Source: Actinobacteria bacterium casp-actino5
Lineage (GTDB): Bacteria > Actinomycetota > Acidimicrobiia > Acidimicrobiales > Ilumatobacteraceae
Length of the DNA: 63,027 nt
Reading direction: 5' to 3'
Assembly: GCA_001510385.1 (NCBI GenBank)
Contig: LFFE01000018.1
Span: 1-63,027 of the forward strand
Part shown: positions 28,403-39,623 of the stretch, piece after piece
How the letters are laid out: each line of letters opens with the position of its first letter
How positions within the stretch are numbered: position 1 is the stretch's first letter
Made by a program: the position numbers and the translations under genes
The notes under the pieces: generated by a model
What the model saw: the letters and a program-made list of their open reading frames with translations, nothing else
Databases searched by the model: none
Told to the model about the DNA's origin: nothing

Positions 28403-28705
28403 TCAGCTCGATATTCGCGCTGCTCTGGCTTCTGCCGCCCGGACTCTCCGTATCGCCCGACGTTCCTCCTCTGAGTGGCCACCCCAGACACCAGAATCTT
28501 GGTTGGTCTCGAGCGCGAAATCTAGGCACTCGTCAATGACTTTGCATTCGGTGCAGAGCCGCTTGGCCTCTTCAATGGCGACGATTGCATGGCCGGTTGT
28601 TCCGATTGGAAAGAACAACTCTGGGTCGGTATCGCGACAAAGTGCCTCGTCGCGCCATTCGTCTTGTGCGGTTGAGGGCATCTCGAGATATCCGGTGTTC
28701 GTCAC
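28403..28705 (-). CDS. whiB1: WhiB1-type iron-sulfur transcription factor
   Basis: A 100-residue Wbl protein carrying a [4Fe-4S] cluster on Cys23, Cys51, Cys54 and Cys60. The turn motif GVWGG and a basic C-terminal helix (SEEERRAIRRVRAAEARAAR) for DNA contact are present. CRDTDPELFFPIG and NQDSGVWGG match WhiB1/WblE rather than WhiB2 or WhiB3. In mycobacteria WhiB1 is an essential NO-sensitive regulator that partners the housekeeping sigma factor. Start is GTG 28705, with GAGGAG six bases upstream. It faces the MscS gene convergently. Confidence 0.92.
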   Translation of the reverse strand: MTNTGYLEMPSTAQDEWRDEALCRDTDPELFFPIGTTGHAIVAIEEAKRLCTECKVIDECLDFALETNQDSGVWGGHSEEERRAIRRVRAAEARAARISS

Positions 28706-28945
28706 AGTTGCTCCTCTTGGATGGCGGGTCGGTTGTTGCCCTCAATTCGGAAGTGAATTTTCTTGCATACGCTCTGGGGGGCGTAACGAACGTAGATGCT
28801 GGTCAGATGATCTGGCAAGGGTCGATAGTCGGAAATCTCTGCATCAGTTTCTATACCCCTATCGCAAAAAGTGATATCGAGTGGTTTGAGATGAGTGATG
28901 GAGCGATCACACATTGCCCTTGCCCGCCGTCATTACGCTGAATGT

Positions 28946-29638
28946 GTGCCAGCGATATTCGCCCATCGAGGAGCTCGACGTGTCGCCCCGGAAAATACTG
29001 AGGCAGCGTTCCAAATGGCAGTAGAACTCGGCGCCGATGGAATTGAACTCGACGTTCGACTCACAGTCGATGGCGTAGCGGTCATCCACCATGACGCTGC
29101 ATTAGTGGATGGAAGCATTCTGTGTGACCTGCCATTTCGAGATCTTCCAGACTCTGTGCCCTCGCTTCGCGCCGCCCTTGACGCCTGTGGTTCGGTGATC
29201 GTCAATATCGAGCTAAAACATTCCCCGAATGAGCCGAACTATGACACCAACTTCGATATTGTCCAGCGTGTAATTGACGAGTTGGACGTTCGCAATGACG
29301 ACCCTTCGCGATGGTTGATCTCGAGTTTTGATCTTGCAACCGTGAATGAGTTTCTTCGGCTGCGTCCAGAGGTTCCCACGGCAATTCTTACGATCGGTGA
29401 GCCTAAAACCGGCCTTGCGCATACCATTCAACATGGTCATTCGGCTTGGCATCCCTGGTGGGAAGACCTCAACGATGAGTTGGTATCGATGGCTCATGAC
29501 CATGGGGTTGCCGTTCATGCGTGGACGTGCAACGAGCCGGAACAAATTGCATCTTTGCTTGAACTAGGCGTTGATGGTGTGATCACCGACGTTCCAGATA
29601 TCGCACTTGCGGTTAGAGATCAGAATGGTCAGAATTGA
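28946..29638 (+). CDS. Glycerophosphodiester phosphodiesterase
   Basis: A GDPD-family TIM-barrel hydrolase of about 230 residues that releases glycerol 3-phosphate from glycerophosphodiesters. Key residues: IFAHRGA with the first catalytic His, APENTEAAF (Glu), DGIELDVRLT (Glu, Asp), VIHHD (second catalytic His). GVAVHAWTCN comes late, as usual. GTG 28946 is chosen because the family begins just before the AHRG motif; an ATG at 28895 would add 17 unconserved residues. The 3' end overlaps the convergent lipid kinase gene by 26 bases. Confidence 0.88.
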   Translation: MPAIFAHRGARRVAPENTEAAFQMAVELGADGIELDVRLTVDGVAVIHHDAALVDGSILCDLPFRDLPDSVPSLRAALDACGSVIVNIELKHSPNEPNYDTNFDIVQRVIDELDVRNDDPSRWLISSFDLATVNEFLRLRPEVPTAILTIGEPKTGLAHTIQHGHSAWHPWWEDLNDELVSMAHDHGVAVHAWTCNEPEQIASLLELGVDGVITDVPDIALAVRDQNGQN

Positions 29639-30557
29639 TCGGCCAAACCAGCCGAATTGCGTTGTCAACGTAGTCAATGTCAAGCGTGGGAGTATCTCCG
29701 AGGTAGTCACCATCGACTTGGAAGGGAACCGGGACCGTCGCTTGTTTCGACGAGATGTGAATGTTGTTTGCAGTCGGCCATTCTTCGATTCCATCGATCT
29801 TGTTCACCGGACGACCACGAAGTGCTCGGAGGAGCGCAGATCCGATGACCGGAAGTTGCAATGAAGTGAACGTCACAGCGGTAAGCCCGCGCTGCAGTCG
29901 TGCGTCGGGTGAAAGATCGATGGGTCGATTGCCCAAGTAGGTGTATGGCCCTGTATTGAGCACCACCGTAAAGAGACCTTCAACTTCGTGATCTGCATCT
30001 CGGTCGTGGATAGTGAATTGTGGTTGTGACCGGTCGTACCCTCGAGCCCACGTCGTCGCGCTGCTCCACATAAAAAGTGGGTGGCCAAGCCAGCGCTTCA
30101 ATGATGCGTGGCGCTCGACGGACGCGACGACGGCCGCATCAAACCCAATTCCAACGTGGAAACAGAAATAGCGTCCGTTCGCTCGGCCAAGTCCAATCGG
30201 CTCGATGCGACCCTCATGAATGCCGGCGAGCAGGCTGTTCGTTGCCCTGATCGGATCGTTCGCCATTCCAATCGTCCGTGCAAATACGTTCGTTGACCCA
30301 CCTGGTAGCACCGCAAGAGCTGTCTCTGTTCCTGCGAGGCCTGTGGCGACCTCGTTCAGGGTTCCGTCTCCTCCAAACGCCACAACTGCATCGAGTTCGC
30401 GCCGAGCGGCGTCTTGGGCAAAACGAATCGCGTGACCTCGGCGATTTGTCTCAACAATTTCGACGTCGTGGCTTCGTGAAAGTAGTCGGTGAACAATCAC
30501 GGTATTGCGCGCATTCACCGATGAAGCGAACGAGTTCACAACGAGTAGAAGGCGCAC
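29613..30557 (-). CDS. Diacylglycerol/lipid kinase family protein (DagK/YegS-like)
   Basis: A 314-residue soluble kinase with the diacylglycerol kinase catalytic domain. Seen: N-terminal LLLVVNSFASSVNAR, the nucleotide motif VVAFGGDGTLNEVATGL (GGDGT), and LPGGSTNVFARTIG, where TN replaces the usual TGNDFAR. The C-terminal beta sandwich ends near VPFQVDGDYLGD. It should phosphorylate diacylglycerol or a related lipid such as a sphingoid base. Neighbouring GDPD may recycle phospholipid head groups, but the two are convergent and not one operon. Confidence 0.87.
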   Translation of the reverse strand: MRLLLVVNSFASSVNARNTVIVHRLLSRSHDVEIVETNRRGHAIRFAQDAARRELDAVVAFGGDGTLNEVATGLAGTETALAVLPGGSTNVFARTIGMANDPIRATNSLLAGIHEGRIEPIGLGRANGRYFCFHVGIGFDAAVVASVERHASLKRWLGHPLFMWSSATTWARGYDRSQPQFTIHDRDADHEVEGLFTVVLNTGPYTYLGNRPIDLSPDARLQRGLTAVTFTSLQLPVIGSALLRALRGRPVNKIDGIEEWPTANNIHISSKQATVPVPFQVDGDYLGDTPTLDIDYVDNAIRLVWPINSDHSDL

Positions 30558-30629
30558 GAGACATGAAGGTATCAGGGAGTTCCGAGGTGGGGTTGGGGGA
30601 TGGGCTACCGATGGGTAAGAATGTCGTCT

Positions 30630-31406
30630 ATGAAGGTCATCGTATGCGTTAAGCAGATCCCGGATCCGGCCCTCCCAGGAGAGCTCGACTCCTCAACAAA
30701 CACGCTCAAGCGTGACGGAAAACTCATTCTTGACGAGTCTGACAGTTATGGCGTCGAGATGGCGTTGCAGCTTGTAGACGCAGCTGGCGGTGGAGAGGTC
30801 GCACTTGTGTCAATGGCTCCAAACGATGAGATGTCAGGTATGCGTACCGCACTCGCAATGGGCGCAGCCCAGGGGCTGCTCGTGTCTGACTCCGCTCTTG
30901 CAGGCTCTGATGCATTGACGACAGCGAAGGTACTCGCAGCTGCAGTCCAGCGCCTCGGTGGCGCAGATTTGGTTCTTGCCGGAACGGAGTCGTCAGACGG
31001 CTACACCGGAACAGTTCCTGAGCAGATGGCAGAGGTTCTTGGTCTTCCTTCGGTCACATTCGCGAAGAAAGTCACGGTCGATGGCTCAACGCTGAAAGTT
31101 GATCGTCAGACAGAATCTGGCTTCGACGAGGTCACCTGTCCGCTTCCTGCGCTTGTCAGCGTGACGGCAGGTGTTGTTGAACCTCGTTACCCCAGCTTCA
31201 AGGGAATCATGGCTGCCAAGTCGAAGCCAGTAGAGACCGTGACAGCAGCCGACCTTGGCGTGACCCCAGTTGGTTGGGAAGGCTCAGGCCAAGCAGTCGC
31301 AGCGGTTGAACAAGCACCAGCCCGTGAAGCTGGAACGATTATCGAAGACGATGGCGAATCATTCGGCAAGATCGTCGAATACCTCGAGACCATCAAGGTC
31401 ATCTAA
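30630..31406 (+). CDS. etfB: Electron transfer flavoprotein subunit beta
   Basis: About 258 residues. The family signature VCVKQIPDP starts at residue 5, and the AMP-binding region includes LVLAGTESSDGYTG and the ETF-beta loop with PEQMAEVLGLP. With EtfA it accepts electrons from acyl-CoA dehydrogenases (one is encoded at 41470) and passes them to the quinone pool. Start MKVIV at ATG 30630 is the family norm; an in-frame ATG at 30600 adds ten odd residues. It is followed 46 bases later by etfA. Confidence 0.94.
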   Translation: MKVIVCVKQIPDPALPGELDSSTNTLKRDGKLILDESDSYGVEMALQLVDAAGGGEVALVSMAPNDEMSGMRTALAMGAAQGLLVSDSALAGSDALTTAKVLAAAVQRLGGADLVLAGTESSDGYTGTVPEQMAEVLGLPSVTFAKKVTVDGSTLKVDRQTESGFDEVTCPLPALVSVTAGVVEPRYPSFKGIMAAKSKPVETVTAADLGVTPVGWEGSGQAVAAVEQAPAREAGTIIEDDGESFGKIVEYLETIKVI

Positions 31407-31452
31407 GACACGCACCAGGTAACGAACGAGCACGGAAGACAGGAAACTGAAC

Positions 31453-32421
31453 ATGGGCATTAGCAACATTTGGGTTTTTTCTCAGGAATCAAACGGAACA
31501 GCAACCTCGGGCACACTTGAGTTGCTCTCTCAGGCGCGTTCACTCGGCGGAACCGTGACGGCGTTCGTCGGTGGTGACGCAACATCGATCGCTGGCATCC
31601 TCGGCGAGTACGGAGCATCAAAGGTGTACGCAACTGGCGACCTTGCAGGTGCTCTTCCAGGTGCAGCTGTGGCATCGGCAATGAAAGCCGTTATCGACGG
31701 TGGCGATTCTCCCGATCTGATTCTGTTCCCGCAGAACTATGAAGGTCGTGACGTGATGTCGCGTCTCTCGGTCAAGGTTGACCGAACGGTATTGACCAAC
31801 AATGTCGCGGTCGCCGTCGACGGTGACACCGTGACTGTGACGACACCGGTCTTTGGCGGTAACACGTTGGTGAGCACTTCGTTCTCTGGGTCGGCCCCCT
31901 ATCTCGCAGCATTCCGCCCGAAGTCTTTCGCTGCGGAGTCAGCAGGTGGCGGAGCAGCAGAGGTCATCGCTGCACCAGTTCCCGATCTCGGCTCAACCGG
32001 TGGCGCCACCGTCACCGCAGTTCACGTCGAAGAATCAACTGGTCCCAAGCTTGATGAAGCTGACATTGTGGTGTCGGGTGGTCGCGGGCTTGGTGAAGCC
32101 GACAAGTTCAGCATGGTCGATGACCTGGCGAAGCTCCTCAAGGGCGCTGCAGGCGCATCGCGAGCGATCGTTGATGCTGGCTGGGTTCCGTACTCGATGC
32201 AGGTTGGCCAGACCGGCAAGGTTGTGAAGCCCAACGTGTACATCGCTGCAGGTATCTCAGGCGCTACACAGCACATGGTGGGCATGAAGGGTGCAAAGAA
32301 CATTATTGCCATCAACAAGGATGCAGAAGCTCCGATTTTTGGGGTCGCTGATCTTGGCATCATTGGTGATGTTCACAAGGTGCTTCCAAAGCTCATTGAA
32401 GCACTTCAGTCACGAGGCTGA
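31453..32421 (+). CDS. etfA: Electron transfer flavoprotein subunit alpha
   Basis: A 322-residue FAD-binding subunit. The N-terminal domain is followed by the FAD domain with [49 protein letters not shown] and [12 protein letters not shown], all diagnostic. AGGAAACT serves as ribosome-binding site. Cotranscription with etfB is expected from spacing and strand. Confidence 0.95.
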
Positions 32422-32458: not shown

Positions 32459-33460
32459 TCATTTAACATCGTTGGCGCTGAACGCCCAAGCGATACCGCT
32501 TGACGGGTGTTCGACCGCAAGTCGAAGCTCCCAACCAGTTGATGGCTCCCACGCGTCCCACTCCGCCCATTGAAGTTGGGACACCTCCTGGGTGAATTCG
32601 ATGATGTCGTTATCCCATGAGCAATCGACAAGCGCAGCCAGTAGCCACCACACGCTAAACCGTCCGGTGGCAGCTCCACGCCTTCGGCCGTGGGCTCCTC
32701 CAGATGCCCCAGCCCAGACCAAAAGGTTTAATGCTTCTGCAGTTGACAGCTCTCGGTATCTCGCTCGTGACGTACCGGTTGCTGAGATGGCGTCAGCGCG
32801 AGATCCCTCGACGCACGTCACTTCTGAACGGCCGTTGGATTTCTCGGTCCACATTTCAACAAGTTGAGCAAACGCAAGGGTTGTCTCAGGGTCCTCCACC
32901 GTCTGGATGTCGGATAGCAATTCGACGTTGACCATTGGAGCAACGACCGTTGGACGATCGTGCTGTGCACCATTGTCGTCGTAGGTTGCGACGGTATACC
33001 TAGGCTCCCACGGTTGAAGATCAATCGGGATGTCGATGACAGGAACGAGAGCATCCTGGGCTTCGTAGGGAATGTGCTCGCCCCGAAGGCTGCGTTCATG
33101 GGCAAAGTATGTCGCAAGCGGACCAAGCTCTAGAAGTGTTCCAAGGCCGTTCCAGGAGTGGTGCACTGCTGCAACTTCGCTGAGAGGTCCAGGTGTGAAA
33201 CGCCCGGCGTTCTCCTGCATCACGGTGGCGCACCACTCGTCGGGGGCCCACAGTGCGAGTCGATATTCGGCAAGCGTCGCGGCAGGCCACAACTGTCGGC
33301 CGGTTTCGACGGCTGCTGCGCAAGACCGGCGCACCCTGCTGAGTCCACCCCAGTCTCGGGTCGATGTGCGTCGATCGATGAGGCGTATGAGTTCGTCAAG
33401 ATCTGCCCGGTGAACGGCTGTATCGAGTTCGTCGTCGGGTTGAAGTTCGTCAGACATCAC
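32459..33460 (-). CDS. Hypothetical protein linked to the SCO1664/DUF3090 cassette
   Basis: A 333-residue soluble protein not recognised from any named family. It is acidic at the N-terminus, has no signal peptide or membrane helix, and is rich in Trp. A possible small-residue/basic loop ASGGAHGRRRGAATGRF occurs near residue 255, next to a Trp pair (VWWLLAALVD). Its start overlaps the SCO1664-family stop by four bases (ATGA), so it is translationally coupled as the last gene of the four-gene operon. Function unknown; a role with the kinase-like neighbour is inferred from coupling only. Confidence 0.75.
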   Translation of the reverse strand: MMSDELQPDDELDTAVHRADLDELIRLIDRRTSTRDWGGLSRVRRSCAAAVETGRQLWPAATLAEYRLALWAPDEWCATVMQENAGRFTPGPLSEVAAVHHSWNGLGTLLELGPLATYFAHERSLRGEHIPYEAQDALVPVIDIPIDLQPWEPRYTVATYDDNGAQHDRPTVVAPMVNVELLSDIQTVEDPETTLAFAQLVEMWTEKSNGRSEVTCVEGSRADAISATGTSRARYRELSTAEALNLLVWAGASGGAHGRRRGAATGRFSVWWLLAALVDCSWDNDIIEFTQEVSQLQWAEWDAWEPSTGWELRLAVEHPSSGIAWAFSANDVK

Positions 33461-34161
33461 ACCAGCGGCCAGGGGTAACGCTGCCCGGTTTCGTCAATTG
33501 GGAACTCCCCAACCTCAGCTGTATGACGACAGCGTTCGCGCATGGCATCAATCTCATGGCGGTCAAGGAGTTCATCAAGTTCTTCTGGTGGCTGATCAGC
33601 TAGCCGACCGAGGGCCTCTCGATGGTGGGTAGCAATTGGCTCGCCGCCAAAATCCCAGATCACGGTCCGTAACTTGAACTCTGCAGCAAAACACAAGCCA
33701 TTGTCGATTGCCCACACATGATCATGAGCCAATAAGCAATGCCCACTTTTGCGGTCGGTGTTATTTGCCGCGAGGTCAAGCAGCGCAATGCCGCGCAACT
33801 CATCATGAAGATCTTCACGCGCTTCGTAAATGGTGAAGTAATGCTCTGAATGGTCAGCGTCAACGAACCACTGAACCGACCCAACGCCGAGAGGTCCATC
33901 TCGGATGATGGTGGGGGGAACTGCACCGATGTCGAGCGCTTCGCTCACCACGTACGCTGCTCGCTCACGACGGTGAAGTCCTGGCTCAAAGTCCCACAAA
34001 GGACGCTCACCGCGAATGGGTTTGTAGATTGCGCGATGCTCGACATCGCCGGAGCGCACGAAGACGGCGAACGTCGCATTTGAACTCCACGGCATTCGAC
34101 CTTCAATTTCAAGGTCGGCATGCTGTAAGAAATCGACGCGATCTAATTCATTCGTGGACAT
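33457..34161 (-). CDS. SCO1664-family protein with PI3/PI4-kinase-like catalytic motifs
   Basis: A 234-residue protein of the TIGR03843/SCO1664 family, largely actinobacterial. The key kinase positions are intact: Lys47 in AIYKPIRGERPLWDF (ATP Lys), a catalytic loop Asp129...Asn134-Thr-Asp-Arg137 (LLDLAANNTDRKSG), and Asp153-Asn154 in AIDNGLCF for metal. The last two closely resemble type II phosphatidylinositol 4-kinases (NTDR and AIDNGLAF). An active kinase on a lipid, small molecule or protein is therefore plausible, but no substrate is known. It overlaps the DUF3090 gene by 19 bases and the next gene by ATGA. Confidence 0.88.
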   Translation of the reverse strand: MSTNELDRVDFLQHADLEIEGRMPWSSNATFAVFVRSGDVEHRAIYKPIRGERPLWDFEPGLHRRERAAYVVSEALDIGAVPPTIIRDGPLGVGSVQWFVDADHSEHYFTIYEAREDLHDELRGIALLDLAANNTDRKSGHCLLAHDHVWAIDNGLCFAAEFKLRTVIWDFGGEPIATHHREALGRLADQPPEELDELLDRHEIDAMRERCRHTAEVGEFPIDETGQRYPWPLV

Positions 34162-34640
34162 ACGTGCCCATCAGGGTCGACCACGCCGTCACACCAGTGG
34201 CATGGTGGGCGTCCGGCTGATACTGCAGCATCGGCGTGTTCGCAGAATGCAGTTGCTTGGCCTCGGGTAATCGAAAGTCGAATCCGACCAAGATTTTCCA
34301 ACTCGTCATCCTCGGTTTCTCCCATTTCTGCGAGTTCGAGAATCAGGCGGTCGTTGTGGGTGTCGTAACCGAGAGCGATGCGACCGAGCACGAATGCTGG
34401 GTCGCTCGGCGTTGACAATGTCATAGAGCTGGCGATCGGTCGTTCGTCGGCGGGTGGAAGGTCTTGAAGGACGCTCATGAGATATTGGGAGATTGCTGCG
34501 ACCTGCATCTTCTCGCATTTCACGAAAAACCGTGAACTCTCACCGGACATCTGGAGAAAGAAGGTTCGCTGACCGGGCCGGCCAACTGCGCCGGTAGTGA
34601 ATACATCCACTTCGTCGAGGGAAGCGTCTATCGGATTCAT
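34143..34640 (-). CDS. DUF3090 family protein
   Basis: A 165-residue soluble protein of the DUF3090/TIGR03847 family (Rv2134c in M. tuberculosis). It starts MNPIDASLDEVDVFTTGAVG, includes FFLQMSGESSRFFVKCEKMQ, and ends in a cysteine-rich tail (CHWCDGVVDPDGHVCPRMN) that could bind zinc. Start ATG 34640 overlaps the phosphomutase stop (ATGA); the frame upstream lies inside that gene. Function unknown. The family is almost always next to MSMEG_4193-type phosphomutase and SCO1664, as here. Confidence 0.9.
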   Translation of the reverse strand: MNPIDASLDEVDVFTTGAVGRPGQRTFFLQMSGESSRFFVKCEKMQVAAISQYLMSVLQDLPPADERPIASSMTLSTPSDPAFVLGRIALGYDTHNDRLILELAEMGETEDDELENLGRIRLSITRGQATAFCEHADAAVSAGRPPCHWCDGVVDPDGHVCPRMN

Positions 34641-35287
34641 GACAATGCGAGGTCCCCAATTGGGCCACCTGTCGTGTTGATTGCAAGCGCTGCTGGGCCA
34701 TGCGAGGACCATGCAAGTGCGGAGATCGAACAGGTTGAAATGATGATTCGTTGAAAGAGGTCGAGGTGCGTGCCAACCGCGTGCGCAACAGCTGCTTTGA
34801 TTGGGTCGGCGTGCGAGACACATACGATGGTCCCACCCGGGTGCGCAGCGCGCAAGCGGTCAAGGGTGGAAACAATTCGAACCTGCATCTCAGTGAAGCT
34901 TTCACCATTTGGAAAACGAAACGTCGACGGGGCTCGTTGAACGGTTGACCATTCGGGCAGTTTGGAAAGTTTTGACAGTTGCGCTCCGGTCCAGTCACCA
35001 AATTCGCATTCAATCAGGCCACGGTCAATCTTTGGCTTTAGTCCACGAGCAGCGGCAATTGGGGCTGCGGTTTCCCGAGCGCGTTCAAGGGGTGAGCAAT
35101 ACACAGCATCAACTTGCTTGAGAGCGGAAATTCGTTGGGCAGCATTGTCAGCCTGCTCTCGTCCCGTGTCAGAGAGCGAGAGACCTTTCGCTCGACCTGG
35201 CAGCACCTTGCCTGTTGTTGGAGTGTTGCCATGGCGAACGAGGAGAATCGTTGTGAATGCCGGAGCTGCTGTTCGAGATTTTGCCAT
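34637..35287 (-). CDS. MSMEG_4193-family histidine phosphatase-superfamily protein (probable phosphomutase/phosphatase)
   Basis: A 216-residue member of the phosphoglycerate mutase-like superfamily (TIGR03848; Rv2135c in M. tuberculosis, reported to act as a phosphatase). The phospho-accepting His19 is in LLVRHGNT and the second catalytic His in VSHADPIK. Arg/Glu positions are in SPLERARETA and LIECEFGDWTG. It is the first gene of the four-gene operon and overlaps DUF3090 by ATGA. It could remove the phosphate that the kinase-like SCO1664 protein adds, but that is inference. Confidence 0.9.
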   Translation of the reverse strand: MAKSRTAAPAFTTILLVRHGNTPTTGKVLPGRAKGLSLSDTGREQADNAAQRISALKQVDAVYCSPLERARETAAPIAAARGLKPKIDRGLIECEFGDWTGAQLSKLSKLPEWSTVQRAPSTFRFPNGESFTEMQVRIVSTLDRLRAAHPGGTIVCVSHADPIKAAVAHAVGTHLDLFQRIIISTCSISALAWSSHGPAALAINTTGGPIGDLALS

Positions 35288-35323
35288 CGATCTGCAAACC
35301 TACTTCGGAAGCGGGGAGGACGC

Positions 35324-36028
35324 ATGAACGAGAGAACAGGTCAACCATCTGACAGCTTTGAATTACTCGAATCTGACATTGTGAACTGCCGGTCTTGTCA
35401 GCGTTTGGTGACGTGGCGAGAACAGGTAGCGGTCGAGAAGCGAGCGTCATATCGAGATGAGGAGTATTGGGGGCGGCCGGTCCCGGGTTTTGGAGACCGA
35501 GCAGCCCGAATTGTGTTTCTCGGTTTGGCTCCCGCTGCTCATGGGGCGAACCGAACTGGTCGCGTGTTTACCGGTGATCGAAGTGGGGACTGGTTGTTTC
35601 GGGCGCTGTATCGAGCTGGATTATCAAATCAGGCAGAGTCTCTCTCGCGAAACGATGGCCTCGAACTGTTGGATGCGTGGGTTCTCGCAGCGGTGCGCTG
35701 CGCCCCTCCGGCGAATAAACCGACCACACAGGAACGTGACGCGTGCGAAACCTTCCTTCATCGAGAGTTTTCGTTACTCACCAACTGCTCCGTGGTGGTG
35801 TGCTTAGGAGCATTTGGCTACCAGGCTGCATGCCGTCATTTTGGGATTTCGCCGCGGCCAGCATTTGGCCACGGTGTCGTCGTGCCAGCATCTGACTCGC
35901 ATCCGGCGCTGGTGTGCTCGTTCCATCCAAGCCAGCAGAACACGTTCACTGGCCGACTGACCGAGCAGATGTTTGATGAGGTCATAGAGAAGGCGACATC
36001 GATCGCCGATAGCCTCACATTCTCGTGA
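35324..36028 (+). CDS. Family 5 uracil-DNA glycosylase (UDGb-like)
   Basis: About 234 residues; an iron-sulfur uracil/deaminated-base DNA glycosylase. Start ATG 35324 follows GGGGAGGA at ideal spacing; the longer open frame to 35114 reads through the divergent phosphatase gene. Cysteine ligands appear in NCRSCQRLV, VRCAPPANKP and VVCLGAF. Motif 1 is GLAPAAHGANRTGRVFTGD and the C-terminal motif is CSFHPSQQNTFTGRLT. UDGb repairs uracil and hypoxanthine in DNA. Its stop overlaps the following lipoprotein start (GTGA). Confidence 0.9.
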   Translation: MNERTGQPSDSFELLESDIVNCRSCQRLVTWREQVAVEKRASYRDEEYWGRPVPGFGDRAARIVFLGLAPAAHGANRTGRVFTGDRSGDWLFRALYRAGLSNQAESLSRNDGLELLDAWVLAAVRCAPPANKPTTQERDACETFLHREFSLLTNCSVVVCLGAFGYQAACRHFGISPRPAFGHGVVVPASDSHPALVCSFHPSQQNTFTGRLTEQMFDEVIEKATSIADSLTFS

Positions 36029-37554: not shown

Positions 37555-39112
<1,558 letters not shown>

Positions 39113-39135
39113 GAACTCGAACCTAGGTGAGAGAT

Positions 39136-39162
39136 GTTTCTGGAATGTTTCAGAAACGTTTG
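39136..39162 (-). promoter_or_regulatory. GlnR-like half-site array upstream of amt copy 1
   Basis: On the minus strand CAAAC, GAAAC and GAAAC stand at an 11-bp register (CAAAC-N6-GAAAC-N6-GAAAC). The GlnR consensus is GTnAC-N6-GAAAC, so only the GAAAC halves fit well. Position is 24-50 bases upstream of the amt start. It is weaker than the site at 41094-41131. Confidence 0.4.
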
Positions 39163-39183
39163 AATTTGTTCAGAGACGCGCAA

Positions 39184-39210
39184 CTCCCGGACCGTAGAAC
39201 GGTCCGGGAG
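39184..39210. terminator. Perfect 12-bp hairpin downstream of PII copy 2
   Basis: A perfect inverted repeat: 12-bp arms CTCCCGGACCGT/ACGGTCCGGGAG around a three-base loop. It lies after the second PII gene and before amt copy 1 on the minus strand. No T-tract follows, but the stem is very stable; it could terminate, attenuate or protect the upstream transcript. Confidence 0.65.
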
Positions 39211-39243
39211 CGCCCCTACCCCGCACAAGGGTGGAAAGGGGCG
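39211..39243. terminator. Second GC-rich hairpin beside 39184-39210
   Basis: CGCCCCT/AGGGGCG outer arms with an inner ACCC/GGGT pairing, directly adjoining the 12-bp hairpin. Together the two form a tandem stem-loop between the amt-PII units. Confidence 0.5.
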
Positions 39244-39269
39244 GGCGACGATGCCCCTGGCTGTCGGTG

Positions 39270-39623
<354 letters not shown>

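Follow-up and report, generated by a model that had tools for sequence, protein, structure and literature searches.

Three protein families, the MSMEG_4193-type histidine phosphatases (TIGR03848), DUF3090 (TIGR03847) and SCO1664 (TIGR03843), are already captured as a trio in NCBIfam and Pfam models, as is the weak similarity of SCO1664 to PI3/4-kinases. We take Rv2135c to be a member of the first family. In the sections of PMC3866925 consulted, Rv2135c is an active acid phosphatase with a pH optimum of 5.8, forms a tetramer and has no phosphoglycerate mutase activity, its own substrate being given as not known. The linkage of SCO1664, an actinobacterial signature gene, to mshC has also been published (PMC4255298, consulted in excerpt). 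Here we describe a locus of contig LFFE01000018.1 (assembly GCA_001510385.1) from Actinobacteria bacterium casp-actino5 (Ilumatobacteraceae), in which genes of all three families overlap; the whole stretch of 63,027 nucleotides is referred to as the window.

From fold prediction we are confident that the SCO1664-family protein has a kinase fold of the PI4KII/Fam20 type, with type II phosphatidylinositol 4-kinase (PI4KII) as its nearest relative. We further propose, tentatively and at somewhat less than an even chance, that this kinase and the phosphatase act on one substrate, most likely a protein, namely DUF3090 or its cargo.

A conserved phosphatase-DUF3090-kinase order

The features of the locus are:

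34637-35287, minus strand: TIGR03848 (MSMEG_4193 family) histidine phosphatase, branch 1, 216 aa (His_Phos_1, 1.6e-50)
34143-34640, minus strand: DUF3090/TIGR03847 protein, 165 aa, with a predicted PUR/Whirly-like domain and a CxxC...HxC tail (C147, C150, H159, C161)
33457-34161, minus strand: TIGR03843/SCO1664-family compact predicted kinase, 234 aa, with K47, E66, D136-R137-K138-x-x-H141 and D153
32459-33457, minus strand: DUF6183-like protein, 332 aa, a clade-specific fourth gene
35288-35323, no strand: short gap to a divergent UDG-superfamily gene, possibly a promoter region

An earlier note on this DNA had assigned the first three genes to these families, and the assignments hold. The curated NCBIfam cut-offs are exceeded by the phosphatase (218.7 bits against 203.85), the DUF3090 protein (125.3 against 117.25 for TIGR03847, and 123.7 against 27 for the DUF3090 model) and the kinase (238.4 against 172.4). 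The four minus-strand genes also overlap as claimed, by 4 bp (ATGA) between phosphatase and DUF3090 and by 19 bp between DUF3090 and kinase, except that the last junction is a 1-bp overlap and not a second ATGA: it reads GTGTGATG, i.e. TGATG with an ATG start, an alternative GTG start lying three bases earlier.

Gene order was compared in the best 80 of at least 594 candidate stretches, picked by similarity to the window, so that locus counts are biased toward the window's relatives. In 75 of these loci, a phosphatase relative precedes the kinase on the same strand at a distance of no more than 3 kb; in 68, DUF3090 is the gene just before the kinase, and 64 keep the full order. This arrangement is more than chance. 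The nearest relatives of the locus probably place its genome with Ilumatobacteraceae or a closely related group. Among the five loci without a phosphatase relative, two (L057, L075) are cut by contig ends and three (L104, L105, L110) belong to Chloroflexi, where kinase and DUF3090 are present in 13/13 such loci. As a side observation, three loci titled Bifidobacterium breve (L040, L042, L075) carry kinases that group with those of Acidimicrobiia type, L040 and L042 more closely with Ilumatobacteraceae, and are probably mislabelled metagenome-assembled genomes; three titled Rokuibacteriota (L063, L073, L080), from genomes with PafA and PrcB and with the kinase among Actinomycetota, are probably mislabelled as well.

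Across 296 genomes of the phylum, counted at E ≤ 0.001, SCO1664 and DUF3090 are each found in 126 and occur together in 125, the two sets differing in G174 (marginal) and G172; above the curated cut-offs, the numbers are 121 and 107. Corynebacterium glutamicum, a control genome, has SCO1664 above the cut-off and no match to DUF3090.

Fold and active sites

The predicted kinase fold is of the PI4KII as well as the Fam20 type, which bears out the earlier suggestion of a PI4KII-like kinase. Sequence models register this relationship faintly: the window kinase scores 23.8 bits on PF00454, below the cut-off of 27.1, the Fam20C model PF06702 matches 1 of 81 kinase members (E 0.057), and a sequence search of solved structures with the window kinase alone returned nothing useful.

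Active-site residues were followed in two alignments, A2 with 81 kinase rows and A1 with the window kinase and 17 more distant actinobacterial sequences (18 rows). K47, E66, D129, N133, D136, R137, K138, G140, H141 and D153 are invariant in A2, and all save the varying G140 are also kept in A1. The set expected of an active ATP kinase (Lys47, Glu66, catalytic Asp136, metal Asp153) is thus complete in 81/81. K47, D129, N134-T-D-R137 and D153-N154 do stand where the earlier note placed them in the window kinase. Its catalytic reading survives for the lysine and both aspartates, whereas at residue 154 only 26 of the 81 rows have Asn, against 51 with His and 4 with Gln, so that 'DN' is not a family feature. 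Its likeness to PI4KII is upheld by the predicted fold but breaks down at His141. This residue, five positions after the catalytic Asp, is present in every row of A2 and A1; in the profile alignment, PI4K2B carries Asn at the same position and FAM20A carries Glu. No discussion of His141 was found in the literature searched.

The invariant His141 is also what would favour a pseudokinase, or another group transfer such as AMPylation or use of a non-ATP donor, with the fold kept and the chemistry altered. Pseudokinases seldom retain the lysine, the catalytic Asp and the metal Asp together, yet all three are found in every row, and we regard this explanation as improbable.

In the phosphatases, R18 and H19 are conserved in 71/71 and H159 in 76/76 of the aligned sequences without a gap there; by their roles in the histidine phosphatase superfamily, we presume these residues to be catalytic. 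The earlier claim of a phosphatase is supported by the published activity of Rv2135c (PMC3866925, in part), whose family membership is as we assumed above.

Loci without DUF3090 and the candidate substrate

A family hidden Markov model (HMM) finds no DUF3090 in 12 of the 80 loci. One of these (L075) is truncated by the end of its contig; the remaining 11 come from Arthrobacter, Citricoccus, Kocuria and Propioniciclava, and phosphatase and kinase are adjacent in all 11. DUF3090 is dispensable, then, to the pairing of the other two genes. Genome-wide, DUF3090 lies elsewhere in six of the 11 two-gene genomes (all Arthrobacter) and was not found in five; the 11 have no completeness figures, and absence of DUF3090 or PrcB may partly reflect missing sequence. 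In the six, a full-length canonical SCO1664 stands beside DUF3090 in three, is split in G296 and is absent in G299 and G301. Among Arthrobacter genomes with DUF3090, L111 and L112 have no canonical kinase or phosphatase that we could find beside it.

In the kinase tree, the two-gene pairs, L114 and the DUF3090-bearing L049 form one clade inside the Ilumatobacteraceae-type part (support 96/97; position of L049 89/40). Given this nesting, the pairs look horizontally acquired, with DUF3090 lost once or twice. The two-gene loci (L046, L051-L054, L060, L071, L079, L083, L096, L100) also lie near an opposite-strand AAA (MoxR/ChlI-like) ATPase gene (11/11) and a VWA protein gene (10/11), one such pair being annotated.

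The 11 two-gene rows of A2 were compared with the 70 others (the window and 69 loci, including the truncated L075). Trp56, in the stretch GERPLWDF, is present in 66 of the 70 and in none of the 11, and is the only column that is at least 85% conserved in the former and lost in the latter. Trp56 is retained in L049, a DUF3090-bearing locus nested in the two-gene clade. On this alignment pattern, Trp56 may be put forward as a candidate docking residue for DUF3090, purely as a hypothesis, since the rows are not independent.

Taken together, these observations suggest the following scheme. Kinase and phosphatase would be co-produced, the one adding and the other removing a single phosphate. The SCO1664 protein would bind ATP in a PI4KII/Fam20-type cleft to which the N-lobe contributes Lys47 and Glu66; Asp136 would act as catalytic base, His141 and Asp153 would hold the metal, and a hydroxyl would be phosphorylated. 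The TIGR03848 phosphatase would strip the phosphate via His19. DUF3090 may itself be the substrate, or it may dock near Trp56 and deliver a protein or nucleic-acid complex to the kinase; the DUF6183-like protein would be a lineage-specific extra. In a bolder version, which we consider rather unlikely, a bacterial kinase intermediate between PI4KII and Fam20 (DRKxxH, with a His metal ligand) would reversibly phosphorylate a PUR-fold, zinc-tailed DUF3090 that binds RNA or single-stranded DNA. If true, this would be a phosphorylation-controlled nucleic-acid regulator in Actinobacteria and Chloroflexi.

Several points weigh against a shared protein substrate. The family HMM finds no phosphatase in the three Chloroflexi loci named above (3/13), nor across 13 kb of L113, a canonical Arthrobacter DUF3090-kinase locus. 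SCO1664 also co-occurs with the unrelated marker WhiB at 0.879, so its co-occurrence with DUF3090 is itself raised by shared ancestry. The replacement of Asn by His141 may mean altered or lost phosphotransfer, and the literature searched yielded no kinase assay. Trp56 is missing from L039, L059, L086, L095 and, in A1, L022, all of which have DUF3090 relatives, and its loss amounts to one or two tree events, which is statistically weak. DUF3090 matches PUR-like structures only distantly, at 6% identity and a Foldseek E of 0.014. In addition, no PUR family is among the 25 Pfam families listed of 36 matched by 61 DUF3090 members, and a solved-structure search with the DUF3090 profile gave nothing useful (the DUF3090 alignment, A3, holds 60 of 68 relatives, the short-envelope L033, L035, L039, L045, L047, L056, L073 and L092 being omitted). 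Finally, Rv2135c acts weakly on phosphoenolpyruvate, glycerol-1-phosphate and fructose-6-phosphate, according to the consulted part of PMC3866925, and its substrate may therefore be a metabolite. A sugar or small-metabolite kinase with its cognate phosphatase, and DUF3090 as sensor, is given a low probability; by inspection of the 80 loci, where some of the neighbours are annotated, no recurrent sugar-pathway neighbour was noticed across phyla.

The chief rival to a protein substrate is a lipid or inositol one: the kinase would phosphorylate a membrane lipid, an inositol compound or a polyprenyl phosphate, and the phosphatase would reverse this. PI4KII is, after all, the nearest fold, and MshC acts on an inositol glycoside. 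Of the 22 genomes with MshC above cut-off, 20 (all but G008 and G214) have mshC no more than 2 kb from SCO1664, which agrees with PMC4255298. However, 104 of the 126 SCO1664 genomes have no MshC above cut-off, and the kinase and DUF3090 persist in Chloroflexi. CCPCC, presumably the palmitoylation motif of type II PI4-kinases, is absent from the window kinase. DAG-kinase and GDPD genes lie near the cassette, with relatives in 30 and 32 of the 80 loci, yet opposite-strand ETF genes intervene, making this adjacency synteny and not an operon. Two published observations also speak for this rival. The consulted part of PMC10127668 tabulates MSMEG_4192, which we take to be the DUF3090 gene, among insertions that became over-represented after treatment with dibucaine, a membrane stressor, and Rv2135c is reported, in PMC3866925 as far as consulted, in membrane fractions and beside an undecaprenyl-pyrophosphatase gene. 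On balance, a lipid or inositol substrate seems unlikely. Dependence on mycothiol was considered and rejected: SCO1664 is present in every one of the 22 genomes with MshC, but also in the 104 without MshC above cut-off. Outside the window, the same genome has a 381-aa open frame (G000:C15:79919-81019) that scores 416 bits on the MshC model (cut-off 485.1); most same-order genomes of the draw score about 400-446 bits, which may mark a separate MshC-like ligase.

A role as accessory to the Pup-proteasome system, SCO1664 going with PafA and DUF3090 with the 20S proteasome, is very improbable and largely refuted by controls. PafA is found in 137 and PrcB in 125 of the 296 genomes. SCO1664 and PafA are both present in 124 genomes, SCO1664 alone in 2, PafA alone in 13 and neither in 157 (phi 0.90, similar to the 0.907 of PafA with PrcB), a figure that looked decisive. 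In 80 of these genomes, however, the unrelated WhiB reaches 0.975 with PafA against 0.902 for SCO1664; shared ancestry alone can thus give the association. Moreover, neither PafA (0/13) nor PrcB (0/13) is found in the Chloroflexi genomes carrying kinase and DUF3090, so these genes do not occur only with the Pup system. All 11 two-gene genomes have PafA (one below cut-off). Five of them have neither DUF3090 nor PrcB and five have both, G296 (DUF3090, no PrcB) being the exception. This fit of 10/11 to a proteasome tie is overruled by the 296-genome mismatches: DUF3090 without PrcB in 11 genomes, including G006, G024, G063, G139 and G215 (96-100% complete), and PrcB without DUF3090 in 10, one of them marginal.

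Neighbouring genes and comparison with known systems

The fourth product passes the PF19681 (DUF6183) cut-off (36.9 bits against 26.6), as do only 2 of 5 relatives scanned. In 18 of the 80 loci, such a relative follows the kinase, closely in 17 and about 0.8 kb further on in L036; seven loci end less than 1.2 kb from the kinase, where a fourth gene could not show. All 18 are titled Actinomycetota or groups thereof, an HMM of the relatives finds no further members in open frames of the 80 loci, and the proteins share the stretch SGGxxGxRxGxAxGR (each letter in 18-19 of 19). The gene looks like an add-on outside the core. The earlier view of four genes as one cassette must therefore be given up, since the fourth is so restricted and five kinase-phosphatase genomes yielded no DUF3090.

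Across the short gap, the divergent UDG-superfamily gene, whose ATG is tentatively put at 35324, has relatives in 41/80 loci. GDPD, DAG-kinase and both ETF subunit genes adjoin the cassette at 28895-32421 (relatives in 30-36/80), and a WhiB-family gene (PF02467 match) lies 4 kb away at 28403-28705, minus strand (27/80). At 37555-39608, an ammonium transporter gene stands between two PII-like (GlnK) genes, identified by eye. Viral carriage was rejected, none of 6 pattern matches being a relative, and none of the four cassette proteins matched the phage-defence families of PADLOC at E ≤ 0.01.

Other published mentions are brief in the portions consulted: MSMEG_4192 in a ClpC1 interactome (PMC10433963), DUF3090 in PMC13118837, Rv2134c in PMC11329110 and Rv2133c in PMC11754781. 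A literature search on SCO1665-SCO1667 and MSMEG_4190-4191 found nothing. Judged by the literature searched, five points are new: the evidence on the fold, the invariance of His141, a PUR-like lead for DUF3090, the form of the module without DUF3090, and Trp56. SCO1664 and DUF3090 are widespread in the sampled genomes; the PI4KII/Fam20 fold, the family-specific loop His, the two-gene form and the candidate docking Trp56 make their function testable with purified proteins.

Set beside known systems, the locus differs from each. Compared with PUR-alpha/Whirly domains, the DUF3090 protein is 6-11% identical to PUR and has an extra zinc-type tail. The phosphatase belongs to the same superfamily branch as Rv2135c, which has RHA (PMC3866925, in part) where the window protein has RHG. 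The signature gene beside mshC is of the same family as the window kinase, in whose genome the best MshC score stays below cut-off. From the HipA-like kinases (PF20613 HipA_2, HipA), also among the closest systems, the kinase differs in its pairing with a phosphatase; a toxin-antitoxin partner was not noticed. The Fam20 kinases (Fam20A/B/C, Golgi casein kinase) differ in their secretory-pathway setting, which a bacterial protein of 234 aa lacks, and in the Glu of FAM20A where the SCO1664 family has His. Type II PI4-kinases (PI4K2A/PI4K2B) are nearest in fold, and the plant PI4K-gamma proteins among them are described, in the consulted part of PMC4986951, as protein kinases failing to make phosphatidylinositol 4-phosphate. 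The SCO1664 protein is set apart from PI4K2A/PI4K2B by its small size, by His141 instead of the loop Asn and by its place in a bacterial operon with a phosphatase and DUF3090.
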